A stretch of 46,206 nucleotides of DNA from positions 1 to 46,206 of the forward strand of contig JAGGYC010000059.1 of assembly GCA_021162745.1 (NCBI GenBank), in the 5' to 3' direction. The notes under the pieces were generated by a model, which saw only the letters and a list, made by a program, of their open reading frames with translations, had not been told where the DNA came from and did no database searches. Origin of the DNA: Desulfuromonas sp. Its GTDB lineage: Bacteria; Desulfobacterota; Desulfuromonadia; Desulfuromonadales; Desulfuromonadaceae. The position numbers were made by a program, and so were the translations under genes. Positions 25,458 to 46,040 of the stretch are shown here, piece by piece; the first letter of the stretch is position 1; the number at the start of each line of letters is the position of its first letter.

Positions 25458-25545
25458 GCCGAAGTGGTGGAATCTGGTAGACACGCATGATTCAGGTTCA
25501 TGTGCTCGTAAGGGCGTGGGAGTTCGAGTCTCCCCTTCGGCACCA
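25458..25545 (+). tRNA. tRNA-Leu(CAG), copy 1
   Basis: 88 nt with encoded CCA. Acceptor GCCGAAG/CTTCGGC, anticodon loop TTCAGGT (anticodon CAG), long variable arm typical of class II tRNA (TGCTCGTAAGGGCGT), T-loop TTCGAGT. Reads CUG codons. Identical to copy 2, about 190 nt downstream. Confidence 0.97.
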
Positions 25546-25647: not shown

Positions 25648-25735
25648 GCCGAAGTGGTGGAATCTGGTAGACACGCATGATTCAGGTTCATGTGCTCGTA
25701 AGGGCGTGGGAGTTCGAGTCTCCCCTTCGGCACCA
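25648..25735 (+). tRNA. tRNA-Leu(CAG), copy 2
   Basis: Identical 88-nt tRNA with the same anticodon loop TTCAGGT and encoded CCA. The promoter, tRNA and terminator together form a second complete unit, so the two were made by tandem duplication. Confidence 0.97.
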
Positions 25736-36517: not shown

Positions 36518-36633
36518 GGAATTTGTAGCACCTTTTAAATAGATATGCTGCTGCAATCGTAATGTTGACAAGTGGGAGTTATCTGTTAGTTTTTTCAATA
36601 TTCTATAGAGCTTTTTTTATGAAAATATTCCCT

Positions 36634-36758
36634 GCATGACAACGCCAAACTCTCTGTGAGGAGAGGACGGAAAGCATGGGGTCTTTGTCTCTCTTTTCGG
36701 GGTAAAGATGGCCTGGCTGCTAACGTGCGAAACGGTTTCGGCTAGCCAGGTTTTTTTT
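36634..36758 (+). promoter_or_regulatory. GEMM-I-like riboswitch (c-di-GMP/cGAMP) with terminator
   Basis: The core pattern of the c-di-GMP-I class can be read in order: CCAAAC (36645-36650); stem P2 CTCTC/GAGAG (36650-36654, 36661-36665) capped by GTGA, a GNRA tetraloop; GGACGGAAAGC (36665-36675) versus consensus GGACGCAAAGC; GGGGTCTTT and AAAGATGGCC as P3 (36678-36686, 36704-36713). A weak P1 GCATG/CGTGC can be drawn (36634-36638, 36724-36728). The 3' aptamer strand CCTGGCT (36712-36718) is also the 5' arm of an intrinsic terminator that pairs with AGCCAGG (36744-36750) and ends in T8, just before GGAGGG of the next gene. Such overlap fits an ON switch. The base that sets c-di-GMP or cGAMP preference could not be assigned safely. 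Confidence 0.75.
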
Positions 36759-36775
36759 AAGGAGGGCATGTGTTT

Positions 36776-38365
36776 ATGAGTCGATCTGTCTTTGTTTCGG
36801 CTGTTTTCTGCAATAATACGAATATGTATCGAAGGGTCAGATGGCTGCTGACTCTGGCAACCTGCCTGATTTTGATGATTCCTCTGGCGGTTTCCGCCGA
36901 AGAATCTTATCAACCCGCCTTATTCACGCCGGACTCTTCCGGGGGGATCCCACTTTCCATCACCCGCTTTATCGACCTGGTTATCAATAGGAATCAGCAG
37001 CTGCAGTCGCAGCAGGCTGATCAGATTATCAAGATGGAGGGCGTCAAGGCCGCGCGGGCGATTTTTGAGCCTGCCCTTGTTGGTAGCTACAGTCACCAGT
37101 TCAATCGTGAACAGAACAGCACGACAGATTTTTTCAGTCGTGGTGGTACGGAAACCTACCAGCAGGAGGCTGACAAGTACGCGCTGGAGGTCGAGGGTTT
37201 GGTTCACACTGGTGCACAGTATAAGGTCGGTGTGGCTTGGAGTGAAACAGAAGACAGTATCAACGAAAGCGTTGAAGAATATCGGCCCCTGGCCTATGTG
37301 AATTTGACTCAGCCGCTGCTTAAAAATGCCGGGATCAAAACCACGACTACGCAGATCCGCATCGCACAAGCGGATACCGATCTGGCTTTGCAGAGTTATC
37401 GCCAGGAACTGCTCAACGTTGTCGGCCGGGCGACCGTGATCTACTGGGACCTCTATCTGGCTCAGAAAAAAGTTGCGATGCGTACCGAATCGGTGCAGGT
37501 GGCCAATCGGATTCTGGAAGATAATCGTGCCCGCTATAGAACGGGCAAGATGGCAGAGATTGAGGTGCTGGAAGCGGAGGCCGGTCTGGCCCTGCGCAAG
37601 GCCCTCGAAGTTGAGGCCCGCAAGACGTATGTTGCGGCCATGAATGATGTGCTTACTCTGTTCGCGGAACATGCCGTTGGCTATGATGCAGATATTATTG
37701 CTATTGATCCGCTTGTTCTGGAAAGCGGTACCTATAGCTACCAGGATTCGATCGGCAGGGCGTTCAAGCTGAGACCGGAATACCTAGCGACCCATACCAA
37801 GCTATCCCAGGAAGATATCCGCCTTGCTTATGCCAAGAATCAACGCTGGCCGGAATTGGATCTGAAGGCCAGTTTGGGCCTGAATGGTCTGGATAACGAC
37901 CAGTCCGATGCCTGGGCCAATCTGGAAAGCAAAGACTATTATTCATGGTCGGTGGGAGTGGAATTTCGGATCCCGCTGTTTGGCGACCAGAAAAGTAGCA
38001 GTGAGATGGCCCAGGTTAAGCAGAGAAAACGCAAGGTTCTGCTTGAAATGAAAGCCATTGAAGTGGCATTGGCCAATGCCGTAGAGACAACCATTTACAG
38101 TATTCAAAGCGCAACCGAACAAGCCCGGTATTCCTCCAGCGTAGCTGAGTTCAACAGTCGTCTGTTGGAAATCGAGCTTGTACGTTTAAAGGCGGGCAAA
38201 AGCAACAGCCGGATGGTGCTTGAAAAAGAAGAGGATTTCCGCAGTGCCAGAGAGGCGGAGTTGGAGGCGTTGGTTAATCAGAAAAAAGCCATCCTTGAGC
38301 TGGAAATGGCCGAGGGCAGTCTGCTTTCCCGTTATCACAAGGATGTTCTGGAGGAGGGGGTATGA
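36776..38365 (+). CDS. TolC-family outer-membrane channel
   Basis: 529 residues. A long leader ending LILMIPLAVSAEE gives an export signal, perhaps from an inner start at 36824. The mature protein has two OEP-type repeats of long amphipathic coils: QQLQSQQADQIIKMEGVKAA, NVVGRATVIYWDLYLAQKKV, EIEVLEAEAGLALRKALEVE, and the second half SVAEFNSRLLEIELVRLKAG. It resembles TolC-like trimers that form a channel through the outer membrane. I chose the ATG at 36776 with GGAGGG nine bases upstream. It is the first gene of a five-gene operon behind the riboswitch; the next ATG overlaps its stop. Confidence 0.88.
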   Translation: MSRSVFVSAVFCNNTNMYRRVRWLLTLATCLILMIPLAVSAEESYQPALFTPDSSGGIPLSITRFIDLVINRNQQLQSQQADQIIKMEGVKAARAIFEPALVGSYSHQFNREQNSTTDFFSRGGTETYQQEADKYALEVEGLVHTGAQYKVGVAWSETEDSINESVEEYRPLAYVNLTQPLLKNAGIKTTTTQIRIAQADTDLALQSYRQELLNVVGRATVIYWDLYLAQKKVAMRTESVQVANRILEDNRARYRTGKMAEIEVLEAEAGLALRKALEVEARKTYVAAMNDVLTLFAEHAVGYDADIIAIDPLVLESGTYSYQDSIGRAFKLRPEYLATHTKLSQEDIRLAYAKNQRWPELDLKASLGLNGLDNDQSDAWANLESKDYYSWSVGVEFRIPLFGDQKSSSEMAQVKQRKRKVLLEMKAIEVALANAVETTIYSIQSATEQARYSSSVAEFNSRLLEIELVRLKAGKSNSRMVLEKEEDFRSAREAELEALVNQKKAILELEMAEGSLLSRYHKDVLEEGV

Positions 38366-39252
38366 TGAACTCACTGGTCGCCTGGAATAATCAGTTCGGA
38401 GTTCTCAGCGGGGGGCTTGTACGCTGTGTCTTGCTTGTCGGCCTGATTATTGGCGGCAGTCTGTCACCTGCTGTGGCAGAGGAGATTGGCGGCATTTCCG
38501 GTATTACAGAACCGGTGCATGATGTCATCCTGAGTTTGTCCACCAGCGGAACCGTTACCAGGATCTTTTTTAACGAAGGCGATTATGTCAAAAAAGGCAA
38601 AGTGATCCTCGGGCTGGATATGCAGCTCGAAACCTTGGAAGTTGAGCGTCGCAAGCTGATCTGGGAAAGCAAAGCGGAACTTAATTCGGCCATTGCCCGT
38701 GTCGCGACCCTGAGCTCTCAGCTCGATGCGAGTCGGGAACTTTACAAGAGTACCGGCTCAATCAGCCAGGAAGAATTGGAGCAGCAGCAGCTTGAATTTG
38801 AACTCGCCGTCGCCGAGAAAGAACGCCTGAAAATCAGCGAGGAGCGCGAGCGGATTGAATACAGGATCGCTGTAGAGCAATTGAACAAACGAAGTCTGTG
38901 CGCGCCATTCTCTGGGATCATTACGGAACTTTTGGCTGACATCGGTGAAACCAGTGAACTGGATGTTCCTCTCGTGCATCTCGTGGATACCAGCCAGTGC
39001 CTGTTTGTCTGCACCGTGGAGGAGCAGGTTGGACGGACATTGCAGAGAGGGCCTGCCGTGAATCTAGAGCTTGAGGCGGGTGAGATTCCCGACAAGATAA
39101 CGGCAGAGATCAGTTATGTCGATCCGGTGGTTGATCCGGCCAGCGGGCTCCAGAGAGTGAAGGCTGTCTTTGAGAACAAGGACGGAAAAATTCATCCAGG
39201 TGTCGCCGGGAAGATGTTTATTTCCAGACGTGCTTCAGACGTCGAACAGTAA
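38362..39252 (+). CDS. Periplasmic HlyD-type adaptor protein
   Basis: 296 residues, with an export signal (LVRCVLLVGLIIGGSLSPAVAEE). Membrane-fusion-protein layout: a lipoyl-like start (EPVHDVILSLSTSGTVTRIF, EGDYVKKGKVILGLD), a coiled hairpin (about 90-170), the second lipoyl half (SLCAPFSGIITELLADIGET), and a beta-barrel domain (DPVVDPASGLQRVKAVFENK). Such proteins couple an inner-membrane machine to a TolC channel. Its ATG overlaps the stop of the TolC gene by four bases. The signal may be a cleaved peptide or an anchor. Confidence 0.88.
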   Translation: MMNSLVAWNNQFGVLSGGLVRCVLLVGLIIGGSLSPAVAEEIGGISGITEPVHDVILSLSTSGTVTRIFFNEGDYVKKGKVILGLDMQLETLEVERRKLIWESKAELNSAIARVATLSSQLDASRELYKSTGSISQEELEQQQLEFELAVAEKERLKISEERERIEYRIAVEQLNKRSLCAPFSGIITELLADIGETSELDVPLVHLVDTSQCLFVCTVEEQVGRTLQRGPAVNLELEAGEIPDKITAEISYVDPVVDPASGLQRVKAVFENKDGKIHPGVAGKMFISRRASDVEQ

Positions 39253-39324
39253 TTTGAAGGGGATTCCTGTCAGTATGGATCTCTGTTGCTGGCTGACCTT
39301 TGACCGCAAGGGTAGGTGCGCATT

Positions 39325-41190
39325 ATGGGCTACACACAAGAACAACAGAATATAACCAGGGAGCAGGTAATCGAGAACCTGGGGAAAATGCGCCAGTACG
39401 AAGGACATCCTAAGACGTTCTGGCCGTCTCTTCTCGAAAATACCGCTCACTTCGTTGAAGCGAAACTTGGTTTGATCCTGATTCAGGACGATGTTGATGC
39501 GCCCTGGAAAACTCTCTGTCACTGGCCGCCTAGAGAACGGGAGTTCCTGAAGGCACCCGAGTTGATCAAAAAGATTGAAGCTGTTGCCGATGCTTCACTT
39601 GTCAAAAAATATGCTTGGGACAACAGCTCGCTGGTAAGTAACAAGGGAGAGCAGGCCAGCCTTTTAGCTATCCGTTTCGAACTTCTGGAAGAAAGCTGGG
39701 AGAGTGTCGCTGTCTTTGTGCTGGATAACAGGTCTGAGCAGGAGCTTGAAGGGCTGGCGATAAATCTCAAGTTGATCGCCGATACACCGGTTATTTATCA
39801 ACTCGGTCGGATGGCGCGGCAGTCCATGGATGATGTCAACCAGTTTTCGGAAGCCCTCGACCTGATGTTGCTGCTCAACGCCGAAGAGCGTTACCTGGCG
39901 GCAGCCATGACCTTTTGTAACGAAATTTCCTCCCGATATCTTTGCAGTCGGGTTAGCCTGGGATGGCTTGAAGATGGTTACGTCAGGCTTCAGGCCATCA
40001 GTCATATGGAACGCTTTGAGAAAAAAATGGAAGTGGTGCAGGCCCTGGAAACCGTCATGGAAGAGGCTTTTGATCAGGATGAAGAAATTCTCTGGCCTCA
40101 GCCGGATGATAGCACTGCCGTTACCCGGGACCATGCAATCTATACCAAGGAACAGAGTGTTTCCTACATGGTTTCCCTGCCGCTTCGTCTTGAAAACTCT
40201 GCTGTTGCTGTGCTCTGTTGTGAACGGGCTGGCGAAACCTTTTCTGATGCTGACCTGAGAGGATTGCGCGTATTGTGCGATCAAGCTGTTCGAAGGTTAG
40301 GTGACCTCAAGGAGCATGATCGCTGGTTTGGTGCTCAGATCGCAGCTGACCTGCGTAAAAGAATCCCGCAATTGAAAAGTGCTGAGCATACTTTTGCCAA
40401 GGGGATTGGCCTGCTGCTGTGCCTGTTGCTGGCCTTCCTGTTGTTTGGTCGACTGCCCTACCGGGTCGAGGCTCCCTTTATTTTGCGTACGGATGATGTC
40501 AAATATCTGCCTGCGGCCCACGATGGCTACATCGACAGTGTCCCGGTTCGTGTCGGTGATCGGGTTGATGAGGGCGCATTGCTTTTGACCCTCGATACGC
40601 GGGAATTGCTACTCGAGGAATCGGCTGCGATTGCCAACCTGAACCGTTATTCACGAGAGGCTGAGAAGGGCAGAGCCGAGAATGCTCTGGCTGAAATGAA
40701 AATTTCCATGGCTTTGGCTGCTCAGGCTCGGGCGCAACTCGACCTGATCCGTTACAAATTGAACCATTCTGAAGTCAAGGCGCCCTTTCAGGGGATCGTT
40801 GTCGAAGGAGATCTTGAGGAGCTACTGGGGGCACCAGTCAACAAAGGGGATGTGTTGTTCAAGGTTGCACATCTGGAAAAGATGTACGCCGAGTTCGAGA
40901 TCAGTGAGCGGGATATCCATGAGCTTTCAGATGGACTTTCCGGCGAGATTGCTTTTGTAAGTCAGCCGCAACTGAAGTTTCGGGTGACGTTGGAGCGGGT
41001 GGATCCGGTTTCCCAGGCCAAGGAGGAGGGTAATATCTTCTTGGCCAGGGGCATGTTCCCTGAGCAAAAGGCAGACTGGTGGCGACCTGGAATGAGCGGC
41101 GTGGCGAAGATTGATGTCGGTAGCCGCAATGTTCTGTGGATTTTGACGCATCGCACCATCGATTTCTTCCGTATGTTGCTGTGGTGGTAA
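39325..41190 (+). CDS. GAF domain fused to HlyD-like membrane-fusion protein
   Basis: 621 residues. The first 350 are cytoplasmic, with a GAF-like sensor domain (about 185-330: AMTFCNEISSRYLCSRVSLG, YMVSLPLRLENSAVAVLCCE, FSDADLRGLRVLCDQA), possibly with a degenerate copy before it (about 35-155). One transmembrane helix (GLLLCLLLAFLLFGRL, about 360-378) follows, then a periplasmic HlyD half (APFILRTDDVKYLPAAHDGY, RVGDRVDEGALLLTLDTREL, KAPFQGIVVEGDLEELLG) and a C-terminal second membrane-proximal tail (LTHRTIDFFRMLLWW). A soluble sensor on an export adaptor is unusual. I chose the ATG at 39325 over a GTG at 39316. Confidence 0.85.
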   Translation: MGYTQEQQNITREQVIENLGKMRQYEGHPKTFWPSLLENTAHFVEAKLGLILIQDDVDAPWKTLCHWPPREREFLKAPELIKKIEAVADASLVKKYAWDNSSLVSNKGEQASLLAIRFELLEESWESVAVFVLDNRSEQELEGLAINLKLIADTPVIYQLGRMARQSMDDVNQFSEALDLMLLLNAEERYLAAAMTFCNEISSRYLCSRVSLGWLEDGYVRLQAISHMERFEKKMEVVQALETVMEEAFDQDEEILWPQPDDSTAVTRDHAIYTKEQSVSYMVSLPLRLENSAVAVLCCERAGETFSDADLRGLRVLCDQAVRRLGDLKEHDRWFGAQIAADLRKRIPQLKSAEHTFAKGIGLLLCLLLAFLLFGRLPYRVEAPFILRTDDVKYLPAAHDGYIDSVPVRVGDRVDEGALLLTLDTRELLLEESAAIANLNRYSREAEKGRAENALAEMKISMALAAQARAQLDLIRYKLNHSEVKAPFQGIVVEGDLEELLGAPVNKGDVLFKVAHLEKMYAEFEISERDIHELSDGLSGEIAFVSQPQLKFRVTLERVDPVSQAKEEGNIFLARGMFPEQKADWWRPGMSGVAKIDVGSRNVLWILTHRTIDFFRMLLWW

Positions 41191-41191
41191 T

Positions 41192-43348
41192 ATGAGTAAA
41201 AACAGTAAAACGTTCAGTGAATCATGGCATCGCATTGCCGATCAAAAGATTGGCCTGCGCGCCAATGTCAAGATCCGAAAACAGTATTTTCGAGGGGAGA
41301 AGTGGTACGTTCTTCATGATCCTTTCAATAACCAGTTTTTCCGTCTGCGGCCGGAAGCTTACGTATTTGTCGTCCGGCTTCGTCAGGATCGTACTGTTGG
41401 TGAGACCTGGGATGAGAGCCTCAAGCGTGATCCCGATGGTGTCCCCGGACAGGAAGAAGTTATCCAGCTGCTGTCCCAGTTACACTTTGCCAACCTGCTC
41501 TATTATGAGCGTCCCTCGGACAGCGCCAATTTATTTGATCGTTACAAACGCCGTAAACAACGTGAATTGAAATCGAAACTGCTCAGTATCATGTTTTTTC
41601 GGATACCGCTGTTCGATCCTGATCGACTGCTGAAGCGTTGCATGCCGATTACCAAGTTGATGATCAGCTATGGGGCCGCGTTGCTCTGGTTTGTCGTCGT
41701 TGGTTTCGCTCTGAAGCTGGTCTTCGACCGCTTCGACGAAGTGGCGTCCCAAGCGCAGGGTCTGCTGTCGCCGGACAATCTTCTCTTCCTCTATCTTGGC
41801 ATGGTACTGGTCAAAACTCTGCATGAATTCGGCCATGCCGTTGTCTGTCGACACTTCGGTGGAGAGGTCCACACCATGGGGATCATGTTCCTGATCTTTA
41901 CCCCGATCCCCTATATGGATGCGACTTCCAGCTGGTCTTTTCGTAGCCGCTGGCACCGGGCTTTTGTCGGTGCCGCCGGTATGATCGTAGAAGTTTTTGC
42001 TGCAGCACTGGCAACCTTTGTCTGGGCGTATACCGGTCCGGGGCTTGTACATGGTTTGGCGTATAACATGATGTTTATTGCCTCGGTTTCGACCATACTT
42101 TTCAATATCAATCCACTGCTGCGCTTTGACGGTTATTACATTCTTTCGGACCTGCTCGATATCCCGAATCTACATACCCAGTCACGTCTTTATCTTCGTC
42201 ATCTTGTGGAATATTATTTGTTCGCTTACAAGGATTCGATCAGCCCGATTCAAACCAGAAGAGAGGCCTTCTGGCTGGCAACATTCGGGATTATGAGCGG
42301 GATTTATCGGATTGTCGTTTTTACCGGAATCATCCTCTTTGTCGCCGACCAGTTCTTGTTGGCCGGACTGTTTATGGCCATGGTCTGTGTTATCTCTTGG
42401 GGCGTCGTTCCACTGTTCAAGTTTATTCAGTATCTGGCAACCAGTCCCCGGCTGGCGAGATCGCGATTGCGCGCAACGGCGATCAGTTTTGGTGCCATTG
42501 TCGCCGTGGTTTTCTTTCTGGCGATCTGCCCCTTCCCGAACCGTTTCAGGGCGCCCGGGGTGCTGGAGGCGTCGCATTATGTCCAGGTGGTTAACCATGC
42601 TTCCGGCTATGTCGATGCCGTTCTGGTGCCCTCTGGCGAAGACGTTGAGTTTGGCAGCCCGTTGCTGAGACTGAGTGATCGGGAACTGGAGCTGGAAATC
42701 GAGGGCGCCAAGGCACAGAAAGAAGAGACCGTGGCATTACAGAAGTTGGCCCGCTATCGCAATACTGCTGATCTTGAACCAATCAGAAAGCGCTTGGAAA
42801 CGATCGAAGAAAAACTTGCCAATCTGCTCTACCGACAACGGGCATTGATCGTGAAAACCCGTGAAGAAGGAACCTGGGTGTCACCGGGCAGCAATGAAAT
42901 GGTCGGAACTTGGATCCCAAGGGGAACCAACGTTGGAACAGTTGTCAACCATGACCAGTTTCGTTTTTCCGCCGTGGTTTCCCAAGATGAGGCATCTAAT
43001 CTGTTCGCGGATCAATTGAGGAACGTTGAAGTGCGTTTATATGGGCAAAGCGGGACACCCCTGAGAGTTACGTCGTATGAAATCATACCCTTCCAGCACG
43101 AAAGACTTCCGTCTGCCGCTCTTGGCTGGCGCGCTGGGGGGGATGTGGCGGTAGCCGTTACTGACGAATCAGGTCTGGAGGCTGCCGAACCGTTCTTTCA
43201 GATTTATGCTGAGATCGATCCTCGTCCAGACGTTGCCTTCTTGCACGGTCGTTCCGGCAAGATTCGCTTTAGTATGAGTCCTGAGCCCCTCCTGTTTCAA
43301 TGGGGGCGTAGTCTGCGACAACTGCTTCAGAAGAGGTACCAGATTTGA
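41192..43348 (+). CDS. PqqD-like/M50 peptidase/HlyD fusion membrane protein
   Basis: 718 residues in three parts. Residues about 20-105 are PqqD-like (RANVKIRKQYFRGEKWYVLH, NNQFFRLRPEAYVFV), a fold that in other systems binds peptide substrates. Residues about 150-450 form a site-2-protease-type (M50) domain with several helices: the zinc motif HEFGH (211-215) and NPLLRFDGYYILSDLLDIPN with the third ligand Asp314. After the last helix a HlyD-like periplasmic part follows (VVNHASGYVDAVLVPSGEDV, FGSPLLRLSDRELELEIEGA, WIPRGTNVGTVVNHDQF). Its start lies one base after the preceding stop. A processing or quality-control role at the membrane is inferred. Confidence 0.88.
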   Translation: MSKNSKTFSESWHRIADQKIGLRANVKIRKQYFRGEKWYVLHDPFNNQFFRLRPEAYVFVVRLRQDRTVGETWDESLKRDPDGVPGQEEVIQLLSQLHFANLLYYERPSDSANLFDRYKRRKQRELKSKLLSIMFFRIPLFDPDRLLKRCMPITKLMISYGAALLWFVVVGFALKLVFDRFDEVASQAQGLLSPDNLLFLYLGMVLVKTLHEFGHAVVCRHFGGEVHTMGIMFLIFTPIPYMDATSSWSFRSRWHRAFVGAAGMIVEVFAAALATFVWAYTGPGLVHGLAYNMMFIASVSTILFNINPLLRFDGYYILSDLLDIPNLHTQSRLYLRHLVEYYLFAYKDSISPIQTRREAFWLATFGIMSGIYRIVVFTGIILFVADQFLLAGLFMAMVCVISWGVVPLFKFIQYLATSPRLARSRLRATAISFGAIVAVVFFLAICPFPNRFRAPGVLEASHYVQVVNHASGYVDAVLVPSGEDVEFGSPLLRLSDRELELEIEGAKAQKEETVALQKLARYRNTADLEPIRKRLETIEEKLANLLYRQRALIVKTREEGTWVSPGSNEMVGTWIPRGTNVGTVVNHDQFRFSAVVSQDEASNLFADQLRNVEVRLYGQSGTPLRVTSYEIIPFQHERLPSAALGWRAGGDVAVAVTDESGLEAAEPFFQIYAEIDPRPDVAFLHGRSGKIRFSMSPEPLLFQWGRSLRQLLQKRYQI

Positions 43349-45336
43349 CGTCACTGTCTCGAAATTACTGGTCTACCCGGATTTTGTTTCCTGAAAAATT
43401 GTATCAGGGACTGGATCGCGTGACCCATTCTTTGCTCGGACTCTCGCGTCGTCGACCGGGGATTTTGCAGAAGATGCATCAGGAAGCAGAGCACATTGCG
43501 GAGCTCTCCCTGACCTTTCAGCATGTTTCTGACCGGCGATTGCGTGACCGCCTTGACGAGTTCAAGGTCCTTTTCCGTAGACAGAAAAATGGGCGCGAAG
43601 AGGTTCTTCCTGAAGCATTTGCCATTATGACGGAAGCAGCCTATCGAACCCTGGGCATGCGGCCTTACCCGGTCCAGATTCTGGGGGCCATGGCGATGTA
43701 TCACGGCTATCTCGCCGAAATGTCAACCGGTGAAGGCAAGACCCTGACCGCCTGTCTGCCGGCTATTCTCGCCGGCTGGTCCGGGCGGCCATGTCACATT
43801 ATAACGGTCAACGATTACCTTGCCGGGCGCGATGCCAATGAAATGAAGCCCCTTTATACCTATTGCGGAGTCAAAACCGGGGTCGTGACCAGTGCGATGG
43901 ATCCAGCCGAGCGCAGCAAGAATTACCGGCAGGACGTTGTCTATACGACGAGTAAAGAGATCCTTGCTGATTTTTTGCGTGATCGTCTGAAAATCGGCAT
44001 TTGTCACCAGCCTTCACGGCGGTTACTGCGGCAGATGCGCCATCCCGGCAACGCAAGATCCGATGCCCTGGTGATGCGCGGTCTTGACACCGTAATTGTG
44101 GATGAAGCTGACAGTGTATTGATCGATGAAGCGGTTACTCCGTTGATTATCTCTCAATCCCAGGAAAACAAGGGGCTGCTGCTGGCTTGCAGTCGAGCTG
44201 ACAGGATTGCCCAGAGCTTTGTTCGCGACGAGGATTACCAGGCTGTGATGAAGTATCGAGAGGTGAATCTGACCGAGGCCGGGCGGGATAAGATCGAGGC
44301 GTTGTCTGCTACCTTGCCGGGCATCTGGCGAGGCACCAGTCGTCGCGAAGAACTGGTGGTTCAGGCTCTGACGGCCCGTGAGTTTTACCAGCGCGACAAG
44401 CAGTATGTCATCCAGGAAGATAAGGTTGTTATCGTCGATGAGTTTACCGGGCGTCTCATGCCGAACAGAACCTGGCGACAGGGTATGCATCAGGCCGTAG
44501 AGGCCTGTGAGCAGCTTGAGATGAGCGACCCGAGCGAGACCTTGGCCCGTCTCAGTTTTCAACGATTTTTTCGATTTTTCAGAAAACTGAGTGGCATGAC
44601 CGGGACCGGTTGTGAGGCTGCAGGCGAATTCTGGCAGATCTATCGCCTGCCTGTGCTGACCATCCCCAATCATCGACCTTGCCAGAGGGTCTTGTCTCCA
44701 GACCGGATTTTTGTCGATGAAGAGCAGAAATGGCGGGCAATTGTTGAAGATATCGACCATTGCCATGCCAGCGGACGCCCGGTTCTTGTCGGCACCAGAA
44801 GCGTTAAAATGAGTGAAAAACTGGCGGAAATGCTTACGGAAAAAGGTCTCTCAGTCAACCTTTTGAATGCTGTGCGGCATCAGGAAGAGGCGCGTATTGT
44901 GGCGGCTGCCGGCGCTCCAGGTGCGCTGACGATCTCCACCAATATGGCGGGTAGGGGCACCGATATCAAGTTGGGACAGGGCGTCGCGGAGTTGGGAGGC
45001 TTGCATGTTATTGCCACGGAAAAAAATGAATCCGGTCGTATTGATCGTCAGCTTTTTGGTCGTTGCGCCCGTCAGGGCGACCCCGGTAGTGCCCTGGCTT
45101 ATGCGTGTGTGAGTGATGAATTGTTTCAGCGCTTTGCTACCGTACCGGTTCGTAAGGTCGTTACTGCAGCGATCTCAAAGGGTTCTCCCGGTGCGCAAAA
45201 ACTCGCCGAAAAGTCTATTGCCCGTGCGCAGCGCAGTGCCGAACGACTCGCTTCTCGACAGCGTAGCGGCATTCTGAAAATGGATACCTGGCTTGCGGAT
45301 GCCCTTTCTTTCACCGGATCGAACGTCGATTTTTGA
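43345..45336 (+). CDS. SecA-like preprotein translocase ATPase, shortened
   Basis: 663 residues, against about 840-900 for housekeeping SecA. Walker A MSTGEGKT (126-133), ITVNDYLAGRDANEM, DEAD-type VIVDEADSVLIDEAVTPLII, FTGRLMPNRTWRQGMHQAVE, MTGTGCEAAGEFWQIYRLPV, NMAGRGTDIKLG, and QLFGRCARQGDPGSA are all intact, so ATP turnover is expected. The preprotein cross-linking region is short (about 100 residues), there is an extra basic stretch (PSRRLLRQMRHPGNARSD) before DEAD, and the helical wing, C-terminal linker and zinc module are missing. TTG start overlapping the preceding stop by four bases, with GAGG upstream. It is thus an accessory SecA coupled to the operon, not the essential one. Confidence 0.9.
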   Translation: MTSLSRNYWSTRILFPEKLYQGLDRVTHSLLGLSRRRPGILQKMHQEAEHIAELSLTFQHVSDRRLRDRLDEFKVLFRRQKNGREEVLPEAFAIMTEAAYRTLGMRPYPVQILGAMAMYHGYLAEMSTGEGKTLTACLPAILAGWSGRPCHIITVNDYLAGRDANEMKPLYTYCGVKTGVVTSAMDPAERSKNYRQDVVYTTSKEILADFLRDRLKIGICHQPSRRLLRQMRHPGNARSDALVMRGLDTVIVDEADSVLIDEAVTPLIISQSQENKGLLLACSRADRIAQSFVRDEDYQAVMKYREVNLTEAGRDKIEALSATLPGIWRGTSRREELVVQALTAREFYQRDKQYVIQEDKVVIVDEFTGRLMPNRTWRQGMHQAVEACEQLEMSDPSETLARLSFQRFFRFFRKLSGMTGTGCEAAGEFWQIYRLPVLTIPNHRPCQRVLSPDRIFVDEEQKWRAIVEDIDHCHASGRPVLVGTRSVKMSEKLAEMLTEKGLSVNLLNAVRHQEEARIVAAAGAPGALTISTNMAGRGTDIKLGQGVAELGGLHVIATEKNESGRIDRQLFGRCARQGDPGSALAYACVSDELFQRFATVPVRKVVTAAISKGSPGAQKLAEKSIARAQRSAERLASRQRSGILKMDTWLADALSFTGSNVDF

Positions 45337-45463: not shown

Positions 45464-45490
45464 TTTAACAGGCTGTTTTTCACCCGCACT

Positions 45491-46040
45491 TCAGCATTGT
45501 CCGGTTAGTTTTTTGCAAGTCGGCGTCTTCGCTTTCCCTGTCTAATTTTGCCAGACGATTTTTTAGTTTCCGGATTCCCCGCAGCTTCATTCGCGATCTG
45601 CATGCGTAGCTCTCTGACTCGATGGATACTGATCTTTTCTCCATGCTGTTCCCGACAATAAATTGCAAGGAGCAGGTAAGTAATAAGCCCGCCAAGGATC
45701 TGGACCATCAATCCATATGGGCTTCTGGCAATCAGGTGGTATACCTTGAGGTGTCGTTTCCCCCAACCAAAGAACGTTTCGATGCTCCATCGCAGTTTGT
45801 AAACCTGGGCGACATCTATCCTGACACAGGGGGGTGCAATCAAAGTCCTGAAGGCGCGCACCTTATGTTTTTGTATCAGTTTTTTGAAGGACCGCATGTC
45901 GTAACTCCTTGGTTATTAGGTGGTTACGATTGCTGTGAGAAATTTATTCGCTAAATGTCAAACGAAAAATGCAGCATCTGTCTGATTTTTTCAGTGTTTT
46001 TTTTAAGAATGCATGCAAGGATCTAACCGGACAATGCTGA
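45491..46040 (-). mobile_element. Internally deleted IS4-type element with intact inverted ends
   Basis: Perfect 18-bp terminal inverted repeats TCAGCATTGTCCGGTTAG (45491-45508 and, inverted, 46023-46040) bound a 550-bp element. The only ORF is a 130-residue fusion of the start and end of an IS4-like transposase. Full IS4-type elements are near 1.3-1.5 kb, so 0.8-1 kb has been lost. It cannot move itself but could be moved by a full-length relative. No flanking direct repeat was seen. Confidence 0.85.
45505..45897 (-). pseudogene. IS4-family transposase, internally deleted remnant
   Basis: 130 residues; ATG with AAGGAG eight bases upstream. Residues 1-25 (MRSFKKLIQKHKVRAFRTLI) look like a transposase N-terminus; from about residue 28 the sequence jumps to the family C-terminus: VYKLRWSIETFFGWGKRHLK, which is the YREK signature Y-x2-R-x3-E-x6-K, then VYHLIARSPYGLMVQILGGL and IYCREQHGEKISIHRVRELR. 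The catalytic Asp residues and about 250 internal codons are lacking. The deletion left the frame open, giving a small fusion that may still bind the ends (inference). Confidence 0.85.

Follow-up and report, generated by a model that had tools for sequence, protein, structure and literature searches.

A c-di-GMP-I (GEMM-I) riboswitch, very likely a transcriptional ON-switch, ahead of a five-gene export operon in Desulfuromonas sp.

Among GEMM-I aptamers, those of the cGAMP type (GEMM-Ib) carry A at position 20. The residues that contact c-di-GMP in Vc2 of Vibrio cholerae, the prototype of RF01051, are G20, A47 and C92 (PMC4744006), and a c-di-GMP-I aptamer with the mutation G20A binds cGAMP (PMC7288161). 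The pilM riboswitch of Geobacter metallireducens, a cGAMP sensor, is an ON-switch by experiment; the 5' arm of its terminator contains the 3' strand of the aptamer, and C75 pairs with G102 (PMC9262584). A further relative, c-di-GMP-I-GGC (RF03167), belongs to the same clan.

The window analysed here, a stretch of 46,206 nucleotides from Desulfuromonas sp., contains an element that can be set beside all three. With Vc2 it has in common a P2 with a GNRA loop, a P3 and the contacts G20/A47/C92; it differs in its first P2 pair (C-G, not G-C), its long P3 hairpin and its platform, a transcriptional terminator. As in pilM, the terminator sequesters the ligand-pairing C (C36720-G36741), but position 20 is G in the window and the operon is a different one. 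It is near RF03167 in sequence, but lies under the gathering score of that family and has A instead of G at position 47. We are confident, short of certainty, that this element belongs to class c-di-GMP-I (GEMM-I) and acts as a transcriptional ON riboswitch ahead of an export operon. The riboswitch itself is ordinary, one more GEMM-I; its value is that it points to an uncharacterised exporter and a likely giant cargo.

Identity and parts of the aptamer

An earlier note had described GEMM-like elements at 36634-36758, namely CCAAAC, a GNRA-capped P2, GGACGGAAAGC and a P3 in the correct order, and every one of them was recovered where it had been placed:

36634-36725, + strand: GEMM-I / c-di-GMP-I riboswitch aptamer (RF01051, 54.5 bits)
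G36644, + strand: equivalent of G20, which touches one c-di-GMP guanine (model alignments)
36645-36650, + strand: CCAAAC, read from the sequence
36645-36670, + strand: P2 stem-loop with CC/GG base, CUCUCU/GGAGAG and GUGA tetraloop; first pair C21-G46
36650-36665, + strand: P2 hairpin CUCUCU-GUGA-GGAGAG with GNRA loop (sequence)
36665-36675, + strand: GGACGGAAAGC (sequence)
A36671, + strand: equivalent of A47, stacked between both guanines (alignment)
36673-36718, + strand: P3 stem, its 3' strand (36712-36718) common to the terminator
C36720, + strand: equivalent of C92, the Watson-Crick partner of the ligand (alignment)

An Rfam scan of the whole window returned a single riboswitch at 36635-36725 on the + strand, with c-di-GMP-I-GGC (RF03167) as the top label (E 4.4e-10 for the window). 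The Rfam clan rule hides the sister family, and RF01051 was queried directly against the genome. The covariance model aligned over its whole length (1-87) and scored 54.5 bits, above the gathering score of 35 (E 7.6e-10, the search space being the 2.9 Mb genome), and the GEMM-like reading of the note thereby passes its family model; by this curated threshold the element is a bona fide GEMM-I. Our own model R1, whose training set included the window, gives 60.4 bits.

P2 is capped by a GNRA loop and fully paired, while P3 is present with mismatches. The three contact residues are all in place (G36644, A36671 and C36720), in the numbering of Vc2 (PMC4744006). Across 29 aptamers, 96% of the cells in P2 and P3 are paired and 14 of the 20 pairs have changed on both sides, a level of covariation reached by none of 500 shuffles. 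Family membership and key residues are thereby demonstrated. The genome has three GEMM-I elements, located in the window, on contig C47 and at the end of contig C25, and that of the window has the lowest score. Since GEMM-I is common in relatives (47 of 58 related genomes), its presence alone is unsurprising.

Terminator and switching mechanism

A terminator sharing CCTGGCT with the 3' strand of the aptamer, and followed by T8 just before the ribosome site, had also been described, and it too was found in position. The features of the leader are:

36565-36570, + strand: candidate -35 box TTGACA, without a clear -10, conserved in position in the leaders of relatives G075 and G076
36710-36758, + strand: intrinsic terminator, stem 36712-36721 with 36740-36750, then T8 (folding)
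36712-36718, + strand: CCUGGCU, common to P3 and terminator (sequence)
36744-36750, + strand: AGCCAGG (sequence)
36751-36758, + strand: T8 (sequence)
36761-36765, + strand: ribosome-binding site GGAGG, 2 nt past T8 (sequence)

The terminator has the stable G+C-rich hairpin and the T run of an intrinsic terminator. Its hairpin folds at -19.6 kcal/mol, a value equalled in 23 of 1000 dinucleotide shuffles before T8 is also required, and C36720 pairs with G36741 in this fold. The loop exceeds the length that a simple consensus scan allows, and such a scan missed the hairpin. A sigma-70 consensus scan gave no match on the plus strand for the TTGACA leader. The likely start codon of the first gene is ATG 36776, which is kept in the leader alignment; GTG 36770 is also in frame.

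Because the strand CCUGGCU is shared, aptamer and terminator are mutually exclusive, and stabilisation of the aptamer by its ligand would make the element an ON-switch. When the aptamer alone was folded, the GEMM fold was not the energy minimum: as long as the terminator is not yet made, the aptamer fold (P2 + P3) lies at -25.9 versus a free minimum of -27.9, or 2.0 kcal/mol worse. Once the terminator is complete, its fold reaches -43.6 versus -34.8 kcal/mol for the best fold keeping the base of P3, or 8.8 better. This energy balance fits the needs of an ON-switch. That the two folds exclude each other is demonstrated, as are their energies; the identity of the ligand, the direction of control and its timing are inferred.

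At low c-di-GMP, the polymerase would transcribe 36710-36758, the terminator would capture the 3' strand of P3 together with C36720, and transcription would end ahead of the ribosome site. With c-di-GMP bound, G36644, A36671 and C36720 would surround the ligand, and P3 and the pocket would retain 36712-36720, so that no terminator would form and the export operon (36770-45336) would be transcribed. The proposal in the earlier note that the ligand prevents termination and switches the operon on is supported by the shared strands and by the layout of pilM, ligand binding and read-through being predictions.

Ligand and alternative readings

The ligand had been given as either c-di-GMP or cGAMP. 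All three contact residues are of the c-di-GMP type and c-di-GMP is therefore the predicted ligand, while cGAMP is disfavoured by G20. That the same ON-switch responds to cGAMP (GEMM-Ib) rather than to c-di-GMP is improbable, even though such sensors are frequent among Geobacter GEMM-I aptamers (PMC6456294) and changes in the lower part of P2 are reported to affect, and can shift, selectivity (PMC9262584): the first P2 pair is C21-G46 in five aptamers, that of the window among them, compared with G21-C46 in 24 of the 29. On contig C39 the genome also encodes a single GGDEF domain whose Hypr position is occupied by serine (HGHLVGS). Against these points, the marker A20 is missing in the window (G36644) and in the other two aptamers of the genome (G in 3 of 3), though it is found elsewhere in the order (L023, L031, L033 and L036), and the usual Asp stands in every other GGDEF domain with a readable motif. 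cGAMP, a candidate because of the kinship with Geobacter and the single Hypr-like GGDEF, was accordingly set aside on G20. Assignment to the variant family c-di-GMP-I-GGC (RF03167), with a possibly altered ligand preference, is more doubtful still. This is the best family under Rfam clan competition, but its 54.0 bits do not reach its gathering score of 59, whereas RF01051 scores slightly higher (54.5) and over its own cut-off; in addition the RF03167 model has G at position 47 (consensus GCGAA), where the window has A36671. The "GGC" of the family name presumably records positions 20/47/92. The label was rejected on the score and on the A at residue 47.

A different alternative concerns the function of a c-di-GMP-I switch at this position, and part of the evidence comes from the leaders of related operons. 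The TolC-gene leaders of G075 and G076 (L068:2075-2190, + strand, and L067:9355-9475, - strand) align with that of the window from TTGACA through the start codon. P2 and the UUGCC end are retained in both, but CAAAC is gone and CGGAAAG is replaced by CGGAUAA; our own model gives these leaders 10.9 (G075) and 21.1 bits (G076), and an Rfam scan of one of the two found no match. The window element might likewise be a decaying GEMM-I homologue that has lost switching, its hairpin acting as a constitutive attenuator, and the loss of CAAAC from these orthologous leaders, the imperfect P3 of the window and its score, the lowest of the three in the genome, speak for such decay. We consider this unlikely, since in the window the ligand contacts are all preserved, as are the GNRA loop and the overlap with the terminator, whereas the degenerate relatives are without the core; the functional c-di-GMP ON-switch is the preferred reading.

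G075 and G076 are well apart (dS 0.75 for the M50 gene, 0.88 for SecA), and conserved blocks of the exporter leader are common to both despite this divergence. In this comparison of two sequences the blocks hint at constraint, and they are as compatible with slow decay as with a functional variant. A pattern search for the diverged leader in 277 genomes of the class matched only G075 and G076, and about 40 relatives in which the start of the OEP gene could be inspected showed no GEMM-like motif at that place, bar these two leaders. Over 97 sources, the exporter-side position is occupied by the switch of the window only. Judged from the leaders compared, selection for an exporter-side switch is not general, because a recognisable aptamer has been lost from both of the nearest relatives whose leader is complete.

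The two-receiver diguanylate cyclase to which the earlier note drew attention is present in the window:

1214-2530, - strand: diguanylate cyclase with two receiver domains and GGDEF, motif FGGEEF (domain search)

Its proximity to the riboswitch weighs little, since the genome carries 48 GGDEF domains, of which this is one. The usual Asp occurs in all but one of the readable GGDEF selectivity motifs, that of the window included; several motifs are unreadable, some being cut by contig ends. The one exception, L247 (G000:C39:2000-5600), reads HGHLVGS ... YGGDEF. Serine marks Hypr cGAMP synthases (PMC6456294), making L247 a possible cGAMP synthase and cGAMP signalling possible in the organism. Each of the three GEMM-I aptamers in this genome nevertheless carries G20.

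The export operon and its likely cargo

The operon downstream of the switch comprises five genes:

36770-38365, + strand: TolC-like outer membrane efflux protein (OEP; PF02321, E 1.3e-28)
38362-39252, + strand: HlyD/RND-type periplasmic adaptor (TIGR01730, 120.9 bits against a cut-off of 94.9)
39316-41190, + strand: GAF domain and HlyD-type adaptor (PF01590, PF16576)
41192-43348, + strand: M50-like membrane metalloprotease fused to a HlyD-like part (HEFGH motif)
43345-45336, + strand: short SecA-like ATPase of 663 aa (PF07517, PF21090)

The M50-HlyD protein scores slightly below the cut-off for PF02163 (26.1 against 27.2 bits) and gives 165 bits with NF041824 (cut-off 300); the SecA-like ATPase falls under the SecA equivalog cut-offs. 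The operon is spread over several phyla (further loci L067, L068 and L142-L190). Its M50 gene has relatives in Desulfuromonadales; accompanied by most of the neighbouring genes, such relatives are also present in Azohydromonas (A. lata), in Malikia (M. spinosa) and in MAGs whose labels include Nitrospirae, Verrucomicrobia, Fibrobacteres and Chlorobiaceae. No other control-relevant RNA family was found in the surroundings of these operons. In the literature searched, mostly without subscription journals, no description of an exporter of such make-up was found.

LEPR-XLL genes (E below 1e-3) are present in 23 genomes of the order, and 22 of these also have the M50 gene, which occurs in 33 of about 134 genomes (Fisher p 4e-16, a value that ignores kinship and compares searches over nearly, not exactly, identical genome sets). 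For 11 of these 23 genomes both genes share a contig, separated by about 2-5 kb; frames bearing the LEPR-XLL motif are also next to the operon in members of Verrucomicrobia and Oceanospirillaceae, among others. Because they co-occur with and adjoin the operon, the giant LEPR-XLL surface proteins, whose open frames reach 12,393 codons in relatives, are its likely cargo.

Three Desulfuromonadales have a canonical GEMM-I ahead of a LEPR-XLL gene. In G075 (a contig of Desulfuromonas sp. MnB_14) and G076 it lies between the SecA-like and LEPR-XLL genes; in G073 it is on another contig. These cargo switches demonstrably show the same overlap of aptamer and terminator, with terminators of -34.2 (G075), -35.7 (G076) and -22.5 kcal/mol (G073). 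A contig from Desulfatiglandales has a GEMM-I at its end, downstream of the SecA gene. In the genome of the window, the GEMM-I of contig C25 (L115:26-127, - strand) is at the contig end and points off it; over 170 bases, the terminator region included, it matches the cargo switch of G073 at 82% identity, and by this resemblance a LEPR-XLL gene probably follows in the unassembled gap. A search of the window's own assembly found no LEPR-XLL gene.

Where the LEPR-XLL cargo has its own GEMM-I switch, c-di-GMP would raise exporter and cargo together, and it probably co-controls the two. We lean slightly towards a broader proposal, in which the operon is a dedicated LEPR-XLL exporter found in several phyla, with the SecA-like ATPase and M50-HlyD protein replacing a type I ABC transporter, and c-di-GMP switches machine and cargo on through separate GEMM-I riboswitches in some Desulfuromonadales. 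The switch predicts that the export machine serves the sessile, surface-bound lifestyle promoted by c-di-GMP.

Elsewhere in the window, two tRNA genes lie 190 bases apart (25458-25542 and 25648-25732), both with 52.1 bits (Rfam) and identical in aligned sequence. Beyond the operon and close to where the contig ends, the region 45490-46040 resembles an insertion-sequence remnant; this candidate has a 130-aa frame on the minus strand (45505-45897), with CAGCATTGTCCGGTTAG near 45491 and its reverse complement near 46025.
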